Positions 1 to 13,980 of a stretch of DNA of 64,000 nucleotides are shown here, one piece after another. Numbering within the stretch: position 1 is the stretch's first letter; every line of letters begins with the position of its first letter. Under the pieces are notes generated by a model. The model worked only from the letters and a program-made list of their open reading frames with translations. It ran no database searches and had not been told where the DNA came from. Source of the DNA: Gemmatimonadaceae bacterium (GTDB lineage: Bacteria; Gemmatimonadota; Gemmatimonadetes; Gemmatimonadales; Gemmatimonadaceae); NCBI GenBank assembly GCA_025358925.1, contig JANYHT010000033.1, positions 124,001 to 188,000 of the forward strand, written 5' to 3'. Position numbers and translations under genes: made by a program.

Positions 1-527
1 CCGTAGTGTGTCAGGCGCCGCAAATCCTTGCCGTCGCGTCCGACGGTGTACAGGTCGAATGGATCGATGCCCCACACGTACCCTTTGGACGGATCGGGCT
101 TGATTGGGCACACGCTGTCCGCCGCGTGGGTCGATGCAAAAAAAAGTCGATTGCTTCCGGGCAAGAACCAACCACACGTGGTTTTACCGCCGACCGAGAC
201 TTTCGTGAGGCCGCTGCCGTCAAAGCGCATTACATATTGCTGATCACAGCTGCGCCCGTCACGCGTTGACTGAAACGTTATCCATTTGCCGTCGGCACTA
301 AAATACGCCTCTGCATTTTCGCCGCCGTTGGTGAGCTGGCGAATGTGGGTGAGGTGCGTTTCGCCTACTTCGGAGACAATAGGTGTACTCTCTGCGCTTG
401 TGGCACCGCGTGACGCACCCGTGGTGGCGGCGCTGCTGCACGCTTGCGCGGCGACGAAAAACAGCGGGCTTGCCGCAAACAGCGCTGCCAGAAAACGGCG
501 CGCCTCAGATCGGTTGGAAATAGACAT
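1..527 (-). CDS. PD40/TolB-like beta-propeller exported protein (partial)
   Basis: The gene is cut by the window edge: the reading frame stays open from an ATG at 527 to base 1, giving the first 175 residues. It begins with an Arg-containing n-region and a hydrophobic stretch (about residues 11-29) ending AAQAC, so it is exported and possibly a lipoprotein, although the lipobox is not canonical. A low-complexity Ser/Thr/Ala linker follows, then PD40-type repeats, seen as YFSADGKWITFQSTRDG near residues 72-88 and LYTVGRDGKDLRRLT near the cut end. Such proteins fold as TolB-like propellers in the periplasm. The substrate is unknown. The frame is inferred from the sequence because no stop codon lies inside the window. 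Confidence 0.8.
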   Translation of the reverse strand, partial: MSISNRSEARRFLAALFAASPLFFVAAQACSSAATTGASRGATSAESTPIVSEVGETHLTHIRQLTNGGENAEAYFSADGKWITFQSTRDGRSCDQQYVMRFDGSGLTKVSVGGKTTCGWFLPGSNRLFFASTHAADSVCPIKPDPSKGYVWGIDPFDLYTVGRDGKDLRRLTHY

Positions 528-550
528 GGCCTAACCGTAGGCGAGCCCGC

Positions 551-600
551 AAAAACGGGCAATCCGGACGATTACGCAGTCGTCCGGATTGCCCGTTCTC
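551..600 (-). terminator. Strong intrinsic terminator with 16-bp perfect stem
   Basis: Bases 556-571 and 580-595 are perfect inverted repeats (arm CGGGCAATCCGGACGA) around an 8-base loop. On the minus strand the stem is followed by TTTTTGC, as expected for a Rho-independent terminator ending the ctpA transcript. On the plus strand it is followed by a TTCTCTTTT tract, so it could also work in the other direction. It sits between ctpA and the downstream PD40 gene, both on the minus strand, so these two genes are probably separate transcripts. Confidence 0.85.
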
Positions 601-616
601 TTTTGACTGCGAAGCC

Positions 617-2230
617 CTACTTGGACCCAGTACTTTTCGCGACGCGAGGCTTGCCGACTGGAAGTAATGCCGCTGCCGCGTACACATCTTTTTGCGTGGC
701 GCTCTTGCGGAGCAATTCAACGGCTTTGATTAGCTGGTTGTCATCTTTGATGTTATGACGCTTTACTAAGCTATCGCCGAAGGCCGTTCGAGCGACGTAG
801 GTTTCGACGTTGCGGTCGACATAGCCGACACCGGCGTCGTACGTTGCGCGGTCCAGCTTCACACCCTTGGCGGCCAAACGATTGAAAATGTCGTTGCGCC
901 ATTCGTTAGTAACAACAAAGTCTGGCTTCACTTTGCCCTTCTGCGATTCGGCGAACTCGCTGAGCACGTCGGCGAATTGCTGTGATTTGGGTACGATCTC
1001 GCGACCAAGCTTGAGCTCTACGGTAGTCAGTGTGTCGGGCTGCACGTAAACGTCCGGCGTAATTGCACCACCGCCGTACAGCGTACGCCCGTTGACCAAT
1101 GACTTGTACGTGGGCTTGGCCTTTCGCATCGAGTCGGTTTCCATCGAGTCAGGAATGACTTCCAAAAACTGACCATCTGCGTTGAACTTGCGCTCCTTTT
1201 GAATGGAGCGACCCGACGGCGTGTACCACTTGCCTGTCGTGATTTTTAGGGCGTACCCACCGTCAAGGTTGTACACGCTTTGGACGAGCCCTTTGCCGTA
1301 CGACGTGGTCCCGAGCACCAACGCGCGATCGTAATCTTGCAACGCACCAGCGACAATTTCGGACGCAGACGCGGAGTAATTGTCTACGAGTACGACCAGC
1401 GGAATATCCGGAGCAAGCGGTTCGACGCTCGCGGTAAACTTCTGGAACTCCGCGCGTCCACGAACGCTCAGGAGCTCTTTCCCTTTTGGTAAAAACAAAT
1501 TCGACATAGAAAACGCTTCATCGAGGATGCCCCCCGGATTATTGCGCAGGTCGATGACGATGCCTTTTGCTCCTTTCGCTTTAAAATCTTTGATCGACTG
1601 TGCGACGTCGTGCGTGGTTTGTTCGCTAAAACGTTCTAGCAGGATGTAGCCGACACGATCATCAATCATGATTGAATAACGCACGGCCGGCACGTGAATT
1701 TCCGCGCGCTTGAAATCCAGCTTGATGGGCTGTGGCACACCAGCACGTGCAAACGTGACGGAGACGCCGGTGCCAACGGGACCAAGCAGTTTGTTCTGCG
1801 CTTGCAGATTAGTAAATCCTCGCGCGTTGAACGTGTCGATGGCGACAATTTTATCGCCGACCTGTACGCCACGAGATTCTGCCGGCGAACCAACGAAGAC
1901 TTTTTGGATCGTGACATATCCGCCAACGGGCAAAATTTCCATGCCGATGCCGGCGTACCGTCCGCTCGTGGAACGCGAAAACTCTTCTAGCTGCTTGGGT
2001 GAAAAGAGCTCCGTGTACGGATCCTGCAGCTCCTTCACAAGTCCGCGCGCGGCCTTTTCGTACAACACCTGCGCGTCGAGCGTGTCGACGTAGCGCAGCG
2101 CGACGAAGGTGAGCACTTGGTCGAGCAGCTGAGCGCCGCCTCTCGTGGTGCGCGTCTGCAGGGCGAAGCCGCCCGCGAGCACGGGGAGCGATACCAGACA
2201 GACAAGGGCGATCTTACGGGAGCGGGTCAT
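617..2230 (-). CDS. ctpA: C-terminal processing peptidase, S41 family (CtpA-like)
   Basis: This is a periplasmic serine protease of the S41/Ctp family, which trims the C-termini of envelope proteins. The ATG at 2230 is chosen because MTRSRKIALVCLVSLPVLAGG is a clean signal or anchor segment; the in-frame extension upstream to 2362 is Arg/Ser-rich and looks non-coding. The 537 residues show an N-terminal Ctp domain, a PDZ domain (around residues 85-165, with YVTIQKVFVGSPAESRGVQVG) and the S41 core. The catalytic Ser lies in NYSASASEIVAGAL and the catalytic Lys in TSYGKGLVQS, both intact. A strong terminator follows 20 bases after the stop. Confidence 0.93.
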   Translation of the reverse strand: MTRSRKIALVCLVSLPVLAGGFALQTRTTRGGAQLLDQVLTFVALRYVDTLDAQVLYEKAARGLVKELQDPYTELFSPKQLEEFSRSTSGRYAGIGMEILPVGGYVTIQKVFVGSPAESRGVQVGDKIVAIDTFNARGFTNLQAQNKLLGPVGTGVSVTFARAGVPQPIKLDFKRAEIHVPAVRYSIMIDDRVGYILLERFSEQTTHDVAQSIKDFKAKGAKGIVIDLRNNPGGILDEAFSMSNLFLPKGKELLSVRGRAEFQKFTASVEPLAPDIPLVVLVDNYSASASEIVAGALQDYDRALVLGTTSYGKGLVQSVYNLDGGYALKITTGKWYTPSGRSIQKERKFNADGQFLEVIPDSMETDSMRKAKPTYKSLVNGRTLYGGGAITPDVYVQPDTLTTVELKLGREIVPKSQQFADVLSEFAESQKGKVKPDFVVTNEWRNDIFNRLAAKGVKLDRATYDAGVGYVDRNVETYVARTAFGDSLVKRHNIKDDNQLIKAVELLRKSATQKDVYAAAALLPVGKPRVAKSTGSK

Positions 2231-2375
2231 GCGGCTTCTCGCGATGGAGGGAGCAGAAAAATGCGACACGAGCACACAGCGTCGAGCACCAGCGATTGAG
2301 CAACGCCTCTGACTTCCTACGCGGCGCTGGGGGATGGGTTCCGTGCTGACCCGCTCTTGCAACCATCACCGCGGC

Positions 2376-3233
2376 TCACACCTCGTCTCGGGGACGAGAT
2401 CCTAGTACGTAATCCACCTGCCAGACCCGATCATACTGACGAATGCCGATGTCGCGCACCAAACCGGCGCTCAGCAACATTTCGTGCGCTGGTTGAAGGA
2501 CGCGCTGAAGGTGTGATGGATAACGTTGCGTGAGGGGAAGTTGTTCGGCCAGTCGTTCCAAGGGTACGCGCCATGACAGTCGTCCATCGGCCCGGGCAAC
2601 CTCAAGCATGCGATACAATCGGCGCGCGACCGGTGAAGATAACGCGTGATAACGGGCGGCCGAGAGTGTAATGGTGTGACGCGCGGCAAGGTTGGTTCGC
2701 ATCGTGGGGGAGAGGATGACGCGTGCGTCACCGGGTTCACCTGCCGCCAAATTGCCAAACAAGTGCAGCTGTTCGCGATCAGCCACTCGTCGCCGTTGCA
2801 CCGCGACGGACGTGAGAATGGTAAAGCTCACATCGGCCAAGCCGGATGAGGCCGACCAGTACGCCCCGACCGATTCGAGGGTTGTGCGTTCAAGACGAGC
2901 GAGGGCACCGCGCAGCTGCTCGTAGGTGCGTCCATCGGCCCGACGACCCATCGACCGCAAAAACGCGTGCAAGGTGAAGCTGACGGTTCCATCCGCAGGC
3001 GAACCGGCTTCGCTGTACCGATGCAGCAGTTCGATATAGACGTCTTGATCAAACGTGCCGGGAAGGCGATCGCCAGCCGCGGGGATGACGCGCCAGCGCC
3101 CACCATTCTCGCAGGAAAACGAGACGGGCGCATCATCCGCAGAATCGCTCAGGCGAAACAGCGGGAGTTCCTCGAGTGCTCGATCGAGTACTACTCCGCG
3201 AACCGCCGGGCGCCGACGCGCAGCGAGTGTCAT
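2376..3233 (-). CDS. Replication initiator protein A (RPA) family protein
   Basis: The protein resembles the RPA family of plasmid replication initiators, which bind origin repeats through winged-helix domains. Visible family features are the segment PGTFDQDVYIELLHRYSEAG, the helix FTLHAFLRSMGRR followed by YEQLRGALARLERTTLES, and a second winged-helix-like half with SPVARRLYRMLEVAR and RVPLERLAEQLPL. The length from the ATG at 3233 is 285 residues, about what the family needs. The frame is open to 3590, but the extra N-terminus is Arg/His-rich and covers a degenerate repeat, so I exclude it; the true start could still be slightly upstream because no clear ribosome site precedes 3233. No parA/parB or iterons lie nearby. 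Confidence 0.72.
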   Translation of the reverse strand: MTLAARRRPAVRGVVLDRALEELPLFRLSDSADDAPVSFSCENGGRWRVIPAAGDRLPGTFDQDVYIELLHRYSEAGSPADGTVSFTLHAFLRSMGRRADGRTYEQLRGALARLERTTLESVGAYWSASSGLADVSFTILTSVAVQRRRVADREQLHLFGNLAAGEPGDARVILSPTMRTNLAARHTITLSAARYHALSSPVARRLYRMLEVARADGRLSWRVPLERLAEQLPLTQRYPSHLQRVLQPAHEMLLSAGLVRDIGIRQYDRVWQVDYVLGSRPRDEV

Positions 3234-3408
3234 CAAGCGTGGAAGGTGAGCACCATGCGGCGAGAGCGCCAGCGCCGTGATGCATTCGGTCTGCTGCCGC
3301 GCCGGAAAGCCCTGTTGCCGGTTGGCCGCTGCTGGGAGGCCTGCGTCGCGCCACGGGCTCGCTTCGTTCGATCGGAAAACAGCAAATACGCGTGTTATCA
3401 GTGTATTT

Positions 3409-3437
3409 CGTTGGTGTCCGTGTCCGTTGTGGTGGTT
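3409..3437 (-). repeat. Degenerate CGGACACGGA-type intergenic element, copy A
   Basis: Read on the minus strand, this stretch is a purine-rich run with the core CCACAACGGACACGGACAC followed by CAACG. A second, longer relative occurs at 52887-52920. Both lie between genes and share about 25 aligned bases with a 3-base indel. The stretch is upstream of the RPA-family gene. Its function is unknown. Confidence 0.4.
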
Positions 3438-3498
3438 GTTTTTCGGGACAATAAAATACGGCGACCAACACAGCAAACGCAGTATTCTCGTTGCTGCT

Positions 3499-4218
3499 TT
3501 ACGCCAGCGTAATGACCTGCCCCGTGATATTGCGCGCGGAGGCGCTGGCCAGGAACGCCACGACGTCGGCGACCGAGTCGCGTTCGACATACTCGGTATC
3601 AGCCTTCATGCTGCTCATGTTTGCTGCGGTGCGAATCTGTGTAGGAGCGACAGCGTTGGCACGAACGCCATTCACGTGTTCTTCTTCGGCGACTGCGCGC
3701 ATCAGCGTGAGCACGCCACTTTTTGCAGCTGCGTACGCGGCGATCCCCTTTGGTGAACCACTCGGCAACGCGGCCACGGAGCCGAAAAATACCAACGAGC
3801 CTCGACCCACACGCAGTGCTGGAAGAAACGCGCGCGTCGCGCCATACGCGGTGTCGAGATTGATCATGAACTGTTTGTGCCACGCCTCGGGATCACTGAT
3901 ATCCAGCGGGCCCGTCGCGCCAAACCCGCCGGCCACGTGCACGAGGGCGTGCACTGCTCCAGCGCAGTCGCTATGCGCCGCGAGCACCTCATCCGCAACG
4001 GTCTTTGCCGCAGTCGCGTTCGACAAATTTGCAGTGTGTGCCGAAACCACGTGACCAGCCGCACGCAACACATCAGCACGCGCATCGACCTCAGCCTGTT
4101 GCATGTCGAGCAGCGCCAGAATGGCACCGCGTTGCGCGAAACCGAGTGCGACCGCTTCACCCACTTGACCGGCACGACCCACACCGGTGATCACCACCAA
4201 CTTCCCGCTGAAGTCCAT
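3499..4218 (-). CDS. Short-chain dehydrogenase/reductase (SDR)
   Basis: This is a 239-residue classical SDR that uses NAD(P)H. It carries a Gly-rich cofactor loop near the N-terminus (VVITGVGRAGQVGEA, slightly different from TGxxxGxG), an NAG-equivalent HVAGG motif, a catalytic Ser in FFGSVAALPSG and the YAAAK pair typical of the active site. It starts 37 bases downstream of the aminotransferase stop and is the last gene of the serine operon. The substrate cannot be read from sequence; many such proteins are annotated as 3-oxoacyl-ACP reductases. Its place in the operon suggests, but does not prove, a role in hydroxy-acid or serine metabolism. Confidence 0.88.
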   Translation of the reverse strand: MDFSGKLVVITGVGRAGQVGEAVALGFAQRGAILALLDMQQAEVDARADVLRAAGHVVSAHTANLSNATAAKTVADEVLAAHSDCAGAVHALVHVAGGFGATGPLDISDPEAWHKQFMINLDTAYGATRAFLPALRVGRGSLVFFGSVAALPSGSPKGIAAYAAAKSGVLTLMRAVAEEEHVNGVRANAVAPTQIRTAANMSSMKADTEYVERDSVADVVAFLASASARNITGQVITLA

Positions 4219-4255
4219 TGCGTGAATCTCCGTGGTACGGCGTGTGTGAGACTGT

Positions 4256-5371
4256 CTACTCAGCTTTCAGGGACTGCAATGCGTCCGCGACTGCGTCGAG
4301 ACAGCGACGCACTCCATCGACGCTATGATCTCCCATGTGCCCAATGCGAAACGACGTTGCTTTCAACTTGCCATAGCCACCACCAATTACAAAGCCACGT
4401 TGCGCCACCGCGCGTACGAGCGCGTCGCCGCTGAGATGTGCAGGCAACGCAATGGCAGATACCGTTGGCGAGCGATGTCCCGAGCGCGCGTAAATGCACA
4501 GCTCGATACCAAGCGTCTCTCGCGTCTGCGACACCCACTGTTCGGTTGCGTGCTGCAAGGCCGCGTGTCGCAGCCATCGCTGTTCGACACCATCGCTTGC
4601 GATGGCTTCACACTGCAGCAATGTCGCATACAACAACGAGATAGCGGGTGTGTTTGGAGTTTGATTCTTCTTCGCGTATTGCTCGAACTCGCGCACGTCG
4701 AAATAGCGACCGCGCGCCGTCGCGAGGTGTGCGCGTTGCAGGAAGCGCTCGCTGACCGTTGCAAATGCTAACCCGGGTGGCAATGCGAGAGCTTTTTGCG
4801 ACCCCGTCAATACCACATCGAGATCCCACGCATCGGTTTCGACGGGAGCGCCCGCAATACCCGTCACGCTATCGACCAGGACGAGCACATCGTGCGCGCG
4901 TGCCAGTTGTGCGAGCGGCTCGAGCGGCGTGAGCGCACCAGTGCTCGTTTCCGAATGCACCACGGTCAGCGCCACGTACCGACGCGTCCGCAACGCTGTC
5001 TCGACGTGCTCGAGTGACACGATGTCGCCCCACGCGGCGGACACGACGTCCACATCGCGCGCACATGACCGCGCAATGTCCGCAAACCGTTCGGAAAACG
5101 CCCCGTTCACGAGTGACAACACAGGGCCCGGCGGCGCGCAGCGCACGGCCATCTCCATAAATCCGGTCGCCGACGACGTGCTCACATAAACTGGTCGCGT
5201 GGTGCGAAAAATTGCCTGCAACGACGTCACAATGCGCGCGAACATGTGCTCGAACGCTGCACCACGATGCGGCAACATTGGCGCCAGCATCGCCTCAAGC
5301 ACTTCAAGGCGAACTTCCGTCGGACCAGGAAGAAAAAAGGTTCCAAACCCTGGACGGTGCAGATCAGTCAT
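4256..5371 (-). CDS. Class V aminotransferase (AGAT/serine-pyruvate type), candidate phosphoserine aminotransferase
   Basis: This is a PLP-dependent fold-type I aminotransferase of the alanine-glyoxylate/serine-pyruvate group, 371 residues. It shows the typical N-terminal PGPTEVRLEVLEAM, the substrate and PLP segment VVHSETSTGALTPL (about 137-150), LVDSVTGIAGAPVE (about 165-178) and the Schiff-base Lys193 in LTGSQKALALPPG. Its ATG overlaps the serB stop as ATGA, so translation is coupled. No classical SerC occurs in the window. In some archaea and bacteria AGAT-type enzymes perform the SerC step, so I infer that this one converts 3-phosphohydroxypyruvate to phosphoserine. Serine-glyoxylate aminotransferase is the main alternative. 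Confidence 0.88.
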   Translation of the reverse strand: MTDLHRPGFGTFFLPGPTEVRLEVLEAMLAPMLPHRGAAFEHMFARIVTSLQAIFRTTRPVYVSTSSATGFMEMAVRCAPPGPVLSLVNGAFSERFADIARSCARDVDVVSAAWGDIVSLEHVETALRTRRYVALTVVHSETSTGALTPLEPLAQLARAHDVLVLVDSVTGIAGAPVETDAWDLDVVLTGSQKALALPPGLAFATVSERFLQRAHLATARGRYFDVREFEQYAKKNQTPNTPAISLLYATLLQCEAIASDGVEQRWLRHAALQHATEQWVSQTRETLGIELCIYARSGHRSPTVSAIALPAHLSGDALVRAVAQRGFVIGGGYGKLKATSFRIGHMGDHSVDGVRRCLDAVADALQSLKAE

Positions 5372-6045
5372 AGCTGAAACAACAAGGTGTGCAGGGTCGC
5401 GAAGTCGACCGCTTCTGCGTCGGCGACCGCTACGACATTTGGCCGACGTGCCACCCCGGTGTATGCAATGAACGCATCGGAAATACCGCGCACCGCCGCA
5501 TCCGTGGCGCCGTCACCGATCATCACCAGCGGTCGGGGCAATGCGAGGCGGTGCAATACTGCGGGTTTGCCGCGCTGCGTGGCCAGCGGTTGCTCACCCG
5601 CAAGCGACACGTAATGACCGTCGGTATCGAATAATACGGACACCGCGTGCACACGCGATGCCGGAATACCCATGTATCCGGCCAACGGAATGATGGCGTC
5701 GCGCAGTCCGCCGCTCAACAGCGTCACATCGCACCCGGCAACGGAGAGCACGGCGCACAACGCGCGCGCCCCGCGCTGCACGGTTTCGATGTACGCGTGA
5801 CCCAACGCCGTGACCTCATCGCGCGTCGGTTTGATAAGCTCCAGACGGTGCGCGTATACTGATTCGATGGTTATCTCGCCCGCCATTGCGCGATCGGTGA
5901 GCGCTGCGATCTCTCGTGCAACGTCGTCGCCGCGTAAACCGGCGAGCCAATCGATGCCTTCCAGTGAGGTGATCGTCGAATCGACGTCTAGGACCACCGA
6001 TGCAAATCGCGGACGCGCATCGGTCACAGACAGGGAGAGCGGCAT
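5368..6045 (-). CDS. serB: Phosphoserine phosphatase (HAD superfamily)
   Basis: The 225-residue HAD hydrolase has all four motifs: DVDSTI at residues 20-25 (both catalytic Asp), LLSGGL (motif II Ser), the Lys in QRGKPAVL, and MIGDGATDAAV (motif IV Asp pair). SerB hydrolyses phosphoserine to serine, the last step of the pathway started by the serA in this operon. I chose the ATG at 6045, which overlaps the upstream stop as TGATG; a GTG at 6048 is directly adjacent. Its own stop overlaps the aminotransferase start as ATGA. The order serA - FAD oxidase - serB - aminotransferase supports the name. A phosphatase for another small phosphate ester is less likely. Confidence 0.88.
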   Translation of the reverse strand: MPLSLSVTDARPRFASVVLDVDSTITSLEGIDWLAGLRGDDVAREIAALTDRAMAGEITIESVYAHRLELIKPTRDEVTALGHAYIETVQRGARALCAVLSVAGCDVTLLSGGLRDAIIPLAGYMGIPASRVHAVSVLFDTDGHYVSLAGEQPLATQRGKPAVLHRLALPRPLVMIGDGATDAAVRGISDAFIAYTGVARRPNVVAVADAEAVDFATLHTLLFQL

Positions 6046-13173: not shown

Positions 13174-13980
13174 CTATCGACGTCGCGCGGCTGCCCCCTT
13201 CTTGGCCGCCTTCTTCACAGGCTTTTTCGTCGTTGGTCTGACTGGCGCCTTGGCCACTGCTTTTTTCACGGCCGCCTTTTTCGCGGGCGCGGTTTTTTTC
13301 GTGGGTGCGGTTTTTTTCGCGGGTGCTTTTTTTGCTACCGCTTTTTTCGCAGGCGCTGCTTTTTTTGCCGGCATCGCTGCTTTGCTTGGTGCGGCTTTCT
13401 TGGCGGGAGCGGCCGCAGGTTTGCTGGGCGCAGCCTTTGTGACGACGGCTTTCTTCGCTGGTGCGACGGGTTTAGTGAGCGTCGGGTTTGCTGGCATGGG
13501 AGCCGCCGCCTTCACGACCGGTGTCGTCTTTGGTGCGGGTGTCGTCTTTGGAATGGCGACGGGTTTTGGTGCAGCGACGGGTTTCGGTGCAGCAGGTGGA
13601 GCGTCGTCCTCGTCTTCATCGTCTGAATCGGCTTTTGGCGCAGGCGCTGATTTGGGCGGCTTCGGGGCCGGACGCGGCGCACCCGGATTCTTTGGCGGAC
13701 GACCGGGCCCGCGACGCACCATAGAGCCGCCGAAGACATCGTCTTCGTCCTCTTCGTCGTCTGACGGCTCTTCTTCGAAGGCGTCCTCGTCTTCTTCGTC
13801 GTCATCATCATCCGAATCTTCGGCACTATCCCAGAGGCTGTCGCCGTCTTCAGACGGTAGGCCGTAGCCATCGTCATCTTCGTCCTCGTCGTAGGACGAG
13901 CTTCGGAAGCTCCCCGTCTCCTGAGGGTCGTTGCCATCGATAAAACGGAGCTCTTCAGACATCTCGTCACCACGCGGCAT
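13174..13980 (-). CDS. Acidic / AT-hook / histone H1-like Lys-Ala-Pro-rich protein
   Basis: The 268-residue protein has three compositional zones. Residues about 30-88 are Asp/Glu-rich, with DSDDDDDEEDEDAFEEE. A short block, VRRGPGRPPKNPG, matches the AT-hook core (GRP flanked by basic residues). The second half is a run of PAKKAA, KKTAPTKK and KKAVAK repeats ending KKGAAARRR, like histone H1 and bacterial H1-like proteins. It is probably a nucleoid-associated protein that binds DNA with its tail, with the acidic part acting on a partner. CarD-like or HMGA-like architecture is a fair comparison, but no CarD domain is seen. A GGAGGAGG ribosome site precedes the ATG at 13980. Confidence 0.75.
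   Translation of the reverse strand: MPRGDEMSEELRFIDGNDPQETGSFRSSSYDEDEDDDGYGLPSEDGDSLWDSAEDSDDDDDEEDEDAFEEEPSDDEEDEDDVFGGSMVRRGPGRPPKNPGAPRPAPKPPKSAPAPKADSDDEDEDDAPPAAPKPVAAPKPVAIPKTTPAPKTTPVVKAAAPMPANPTLTKPVAPAKKAVVTKAAPSKPAAAPAKKAAPSKAAMPAKKAAPAKKAVAKKAPAKKTAPTKKTAPAKKAAVKKAVAKAPVRPTTKKPVKKAAKKGAAARRR

Follow-up and report, generated by a model that had tools for sequence, protein, structure and literature searches.

A probable domesticated plasmid-type replication initiator core encoded next to ctpA on Gemmatimonadaceae chromosomes

Plasmid initiators are normally lost along with their plasmid. The gene analyzed here lies in a 64,000-nucleotide stretch of DNA from the Gemmatimonadaceae, a family of soil- and water-dwelling bacteria (the window; bases 124001-188000 within a contig of 205,570 bases), and a first-pass annotation had outlined its product as an RPA-type plasmid initiator in a chromosomal setting, flanked by ctpA and serine genes and with neither visible iterons nor partition genes. 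This raises the question of whether the gene is the relic of an integrated plasmid or an initiator that has been reused for another job, such as that of a regulator.

A profile search with the Pfam RPA family (PF10134) matched the product with an E-value of 2.8e-20 and a score of 73.3 bits, well over the cut-off of 27, so that the HMM check proposed in the first-pass annotation corroborated its assignment to the RPA group of plasmid initiators. The reading frame stays open up to position 3590, but the start was set to the ATG at 3233 because this agrees with the start of its relatives (Table 1). The gene runs on the minus strand, a detail that the first-pass annotation had not given. Complete products were found in 78 of 80 loci, all of them with 280-300 amino acids, and the remaining two are interrupted by contig ends. 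Beyond PF10134, no NCBIfam profile matched the protein above cut-off, the Pfam search returned no Rep3_N match and a sequence search of solved structures yielded no real match, while PHROGs and phage records provided a single weak match each, to an unnamed family (E 0.0089) and to a RepA-like protein, respectively.

Table 1. Location of the features discussed in the text. Coordinates refer to the window unless stated otherwise.
Feature	Coordinates	Strand	Remarks
ctpA, S41 C-terminal processing protease (Peptidase_S41)	617..2230	minus	Start at ATG 2230 by comparison with relatives; TTG 2362 also open
Promoter-like motif GGAAC-N16-CGT, presumably ECF-sigma-type	2319..2342	minus	In the gap ahead of ctpA
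RPA-family (PF10134) gene	2376..3233	minus	285 aa; two predicted winged helices, ~residues 60-146 and 169-276
Conserved stretch upstream of RPA gene	3234..3275	minus	CTGGCGC, ~18 nt, A.CTT.C directly before the ATG; promoter-like; identified by eye
SDR oxidoreductase	3499..4218	minus	Adjoins the RPA gene in 44/83 loci
mnmG-parS-parAB cluster	~57-61 kb of the window's 205,570-base contig; 36.7-41.3 kb in G020		Candidate origin region

Iteron-type plasmid initiators (RepE/TrfA/RctB-like) are defined by a pair of winged helices, and an AlphaFold2 model of the RPA protein, built on 61 sequences (pLDDT 88, pTM 0.85), likewise predicts two of them. Foldseek searches with this model returned domains 2-3 of RctB (5tbf) as the first match (E 4.7e-9), followed by RepE-DNA complexes (E ~1e-6) and by Pi. 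VIA Z scores reached 17.8 (8ac8), 17.4 (1rep), 15.6 (5tbf) and 15.2 (2nra), with the WH1 domain of pPS10 RepA at 9.2. Conservation is particularly high in the two helices that probably recognize DNA (0.90 and 0.93 vs 0.75 overall), which rank with the most conserved parts of the protein. The predicted fold is shared with the plasmid F initiator RepE and the R6K initiator Pi (1rep, 8ac8, 2nra), but the RPA protein differs from both in the missing Rep3_N match, and its gene in the absence of an adjoining origin or iterons. RctB, the chromosome 2 initiator of Vibrio cholerae (5tbf, 5ubf), resembles RPA in its two-winged-helix core, with a VIA alignment spanning 240 residues, and is also a plasmid-type initiator serving a chromosome, as described in PMC6090056. 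In contrast to RPA, which has 285 residues and is encoded without iterons on the chromosome that carries dnaA, RctB is a four-domain protein of 658 residues encoded on a chromid with iterons, and the two proteins share only 10-14% identity.

The plasmid proteins carrying PF10134 delimit which part of an initiator the chromosomal gene encodes. Rubrobacter plasmids encode TrfA/RPA initiators (e.g. the 485-residue protein of NZ_CP007515) with ~30% identity to the chromosomal protein, within a range of 24-32% for the plasmid matches listed. In a profile alignment, both winged helices of the RPA protein pair with residues 12-277 of the 485-residue Rubrobacter TrfA, where the alignment ends; the plasmid-borne protein continues into an additional C-terminal arm of ~200 residues, whereas the chromosomal one stops before it. 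Residues 411-462 of TrfA, within this arm, match DnaA_N, and DnaA_N-like matches were obtained in the arm of all four Rubrobacter proteins tested, two of them above the Pfam cut-off. The initiators of Deinococcus and Thermus plasmids also share PF10134 with the chromosomal RPA, but they are longer (449-476 aa) and plasmid-borne, with a partition gene nearby in D. grandis and D. aquaticus, and they present no DnaA_N-like match; proteobacterial and Manganitrophus plasmid RPA proteins comprise 316-363 residues and show no DnaA_N match either. The arm is therefore not universal among plasmid RPA proteins and, given that some of these are also short, its absence is compatible with an initiator that melts an origin and loads a helicase.

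A Pfam search over 395 genomes of the phylum detected PF10134 in 129, all of which belong to the Gemmatimonadaceae (129 of the 140 genomes in this family), and in no other family. A protein search produced a concordant distribution, with matches in 29/30 genomes of the genus, 6/7 from the rest of the family and 0/24 from other families of the order. Most of the 11 absences look like assembly gaps, because matches to other conserved genes are mostly missing too: DnaA_C was not matched in six of the nine RPA-negative genomes tested, versus two of 51 RPA-positive ones, and a search for this ctpA likewise came up empty at E <= 1e-100 in ten of the 11. One of the 11 (G076) contains a 28-residue RPA fragment. 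A pattern scan of a named genome collection returned 155 relatives, and the 80 that were kept are nearly all titled Gemmatimonadaceae, Gemmatimonadales, Gemmatimonadetes, Gemmatimonadota or Gemmatimonas, with one MAG labelled Kuenenia. The gene is single-copy as a rule. G270, G074, G137, G140, G217, G319 and G363 have further RPA-like matches elsewhere in the genome, within open frames of ~530-730 residues, which may be genuine plasmid initiators.

A tree was computed from 19 chromosomal RPA proteins and 12 from plasmids, and although the inference tool warns of long branches, the chromosomal proteins form one clade in it (support 98/96) on a long stem. This topology, together with the lack of PF10134 in the other families of the phylum, rules out a recent transfer. 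The dN/dS ratio ranges from 0.03 to 0.09 across nine pairs, several of them with saturated dS, and the gene is under strong purifying selection. The first-pass proposal of an integrated-plasmid relic, taken here as a gene without function, would account for a plasmid-type protein encoded without adjoining iterons or partition genes. Faced with a near-universal, usually single-copy gene that is always next to ctpA, has complete products in almost every locus and evolves under such selection, this proposal is hardly conceivable, and in practice purifying selection refutes it. Neither a recent insertion of a plasmid nor a relic in decay fits this conservation and selection.

The chromosomal setting outlined in the first-pass annotation was borne out as well. 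The contig containing the window also carries dnaA (29.6-31.0 kb), parAB, parS and mnmG, and since four one-contig assemblies (G020, of 4,636,964 bases, G028, G029 and G160) each carry one copy of the RPA gene, the gene is chromosomal. Iteron-type initiators reside on an autonomous replicon, and chromid initiators of the RctB type on a replicon of their own with an ori2-like origin; RPA shares its contig or chromosome with dnaA. Both genes were found on one contig in 34 genomes, and in 32 of these they have opposite orientations and are 53-297 kb apart. The exceptions are G112, with 681 kb between RPA and dnaA, and G270, in which both genes point in the same direction.

The flanking genes agree with their initial description, with ctpA downstream of RPA and with genes encoding the SDR oxidoreductase, a class-V aminotransferase, a SerB-like HAD phosphatase, a FAD oxidase and SerA upstream. 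Among 92 loci examined, 79 had enough downstream sequence to be testable, and in all 79 ctpA is the next downstream gene on the same strand, which bears on the first-pass question of whether relatives hold the gene at the same place. The intervening gap ranges from 38 to 1563 bases (median 152). Other neighbors are less constant: the SDR gene is not an invariant one, serA lies within 9 kb in 11 of 58 loci, and in 52 of 72 ctpA is followed by the gene that occupies window 3-527 and on, which is TolB-like by eye. Instances of GGAAC-N15..18-CGT, which we take to be an ECF-sigma-type motif, precede ctpA throughout the family, at 53 of the 79 loci compared to 1.0 expected in shuffled sequences. Judging from this motif, ctpA is probably transcribed from a promoter of its own, so that its linkage to RPA is not simply that of one operon; it may be historical. 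The pair remains intact in G112 and G270, where position or direction relative to dnaA differs.

The lack of visible iterons and partition genes was likewise upheld. Direct repeats were absent from positions 2231-2375 and limited to one 11-nt pair in 3234-3498, as the repeat scan recommended in the first-pass annotation revealed; no iterons were found over positions 1-6000 of the window, no common repeat array was present from -3 to +5 kb of the RPA gene across the 92 loci and no partition gene adjoins it. RPA thus departs from iteron-type plasmid initiators in having no iterons near the gene. The only conserved stretch noticed by eye 5' of the gene (Table 1) is also devoid of them. Elsewhere in the window, an imperfect 18-bp tandem repeat occupies positions 13257-13365. 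Six loci (L253, L260, L266, L276, L089 and L090) present repeats resembling lysine/alanine codons (AAGAAG type) 0.8-1.8 kb 5' of the RPA gene, perhaps reflecting a histone-H1-like gene.

Taken with the family match, the predicted fold and the distribution, these data provide good support for the RPA gene being a domesticated plasmid-type initiator core, and they suggest that an ancient plasmid initiator was taken over for a chromosomal job in the Gemmatimonadaceae. One such job would be to guard the chromosome against related plasmids, with the free-standing core occupying the iterons of incoming RPA plasmids in a form of incompatibility or anti-plasmid activity. The lack of the C-terminal arm seen in the nearest plasmid relatives would suit this role, as would the longer RPA-like frames in some Gemmatimonadaceae genomes, but the identity to the plasmid matches listed makes shared iterons doubtful, a fixed linkage to ctpA is unexpected for a defence gene and none of the PADLOC anti-phage defence families matched the protein. 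We regard this role as improbable.

The reading that we tentatively prefer, at a little short of an even chance, is that an anciently captured RPA/TrfA-like initiator core has been retained as a sequence-specific DNA-binding regulator acting in trans. The common ancestor of the Gemmatimonadaceae would have captured, in a single event, the part of an RPA/TrfA-like plasmid initiator that binds DNA, and the family would have retained it among its chromosomal core genes, without the arm of its nearest plasmid relatives. Both winged helices of the protein would still recognize a specific DNA site, whereas helicase loading at an origin adjoining the gene would have been given up. Its regulatory activity, most likely on transcription, could target its own promoter, ctpA or other sites, by analogy with RepE-type proteins that repress their own promoters; RepE dimers are also repressors of transcription. 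Against this reading, the analysis turned up neither a binding site nor a target gene, and no palindromic operator was seen by eye upstream of the gene. The promoter-like motif ahead of ctpA also makes a shared operon unnecessary, and the short plasmid RPA proteins lack DnaA_N as well. Of the two possibilities initially put forward, reuse of an initiator is hence favored over a relic, while the job of regulator itself is one that we infer. Searches of an open-access library revealed no description of a domesticated chromosomal RPA gene; PMC10272867 reports that PF10134 was tried as a replicon marker and dropped for its low hit rate. The locus would represent a plasmid-type initiator that has belonged to the chromosomal core genes for as long as the bacterial family has existed, and it offers a natural test of the change from initiator to regulator or, alternatively, of a chromosome gaining a second replication protein.

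A purely transcriptional role does not explain an anomaly in strand composition between dnaA and RPA. Gene calls, pairs and change points in our analysis derive from a simple codon-usage gene finder, as opposed to curated annotation. In five genomes (G020, G028, G029, G160 and the window's contig), GC skew has negative values on the left side of dnaA, stays near zero in the interval from dnaA to RPA and turns positive past RPA. The corresponding gene-strand corrected GC3 skew values are -0.02 to -0.12, -0.02 to +0.045 and +0.06 to +0.10. The near-zero GC3 interval spans 77-297 kb with conserved gene order, and collinear same-strand orthologs display these three skew levels too. Inversions are ruled out as the source of this plateau, given that near-zero skew is also seen in collinear same-strand genes, and recent inserts alone are an unlikely cause for the same reason.

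The position of the second boundary is less well defined. In an ortholog composite based on G020 (N = 202), two change points fitted better than one (BIC 150.3 vs 177.6), at 7 kb and ~200 kb (195-201 kb for the second), with dnaA at 0 and RPA at 203-204 kb. The second change point coincides with the position where gene direction switches, its range broadens to 193-235 kb when using orthologs present in four or more genomes, and four ortholog groups at 230-233 kb remain near zero skew. The second break falls at 143-173 kb in G160, and G020 alone does not locate it. The parAB-parS-mnmG genes and sites fall within the interval. Across the 92 loci, no lasting or sharp step was detected at RPA; there is only a dip between 4 and 8 kb downstream, and the skew has returned by 8-11 kb. 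On these grounds, a skew step exactly at RPA is not established, and the plateau constitutes an anomaly, not evidence of an origin at RPA.

This anomaly bears on the main competitor of the regulator reading, in which RPA would bind the origin-proximal region and modulate initiation or early fork movement on the main chromosome, in an RctB-like manner but with no requirement for an origin of its own. Besides the near-zero GC3 skew from dnaA to about RPA in collinear, uninverted genes, this possibility draws on RctB being the top Foldseek match, on the distance and opposite orientation of RPA and dnaA in 32 of 34 genomes, and on the presence of a single DnaA box near dnaA with no box cluster. 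The nearness of the two genes may nonetheless be hitch-hiking within one conserved collinear block. G112 and G270 depart from the usual arrangement in distance and relative orientation, respectively, and the 92-locus test did not reveal a lasting step. Furthermore, mnmG and parAB cluster with parS sites and a gap that reaches 63-65% AT over 100 bp; this cluster, 28-39 kb from dnaA, is a more usual place for an origin. We consider replication control unlikely, albeit a possibility of some weight. An origin at parAB/mnmG is plausible, although by itself it would not yield near-zero skew on both of its flanks. If replication of the main chromosome started in two zones, within the dnaA-parAB region and near RPA, the interval between them would be copied either way and would have lost its strand skew; we deem such an arrangement very improbable. 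Unusual strand bias around ter in Gemmatimonadota and an unusual chromosome architecture in Gemmatimonas are described in PMC11237797, the main text of which contains neither "dnaA" nor "replication init...".

DnaA keeps its usual box-reading motif, and ten of the 12 dnaA loci inspected (L061-L072) have one DnaA box near dnaA, the other two having none. No 500-bp window with three DnaA boxes occurs in the scanned stretches (the dnaA loci and 205 kb of the window's contig), and with single or no boxes near dnaA and no box cluster oriC is therefore not evident. Frames of 587-761 residues with tandem DnaA-type AAA+ domains (Bac_DnaA) are also encoded in the genome containing the window (G000:C26:43140-44699) and in nine of 11 other genomes searched.
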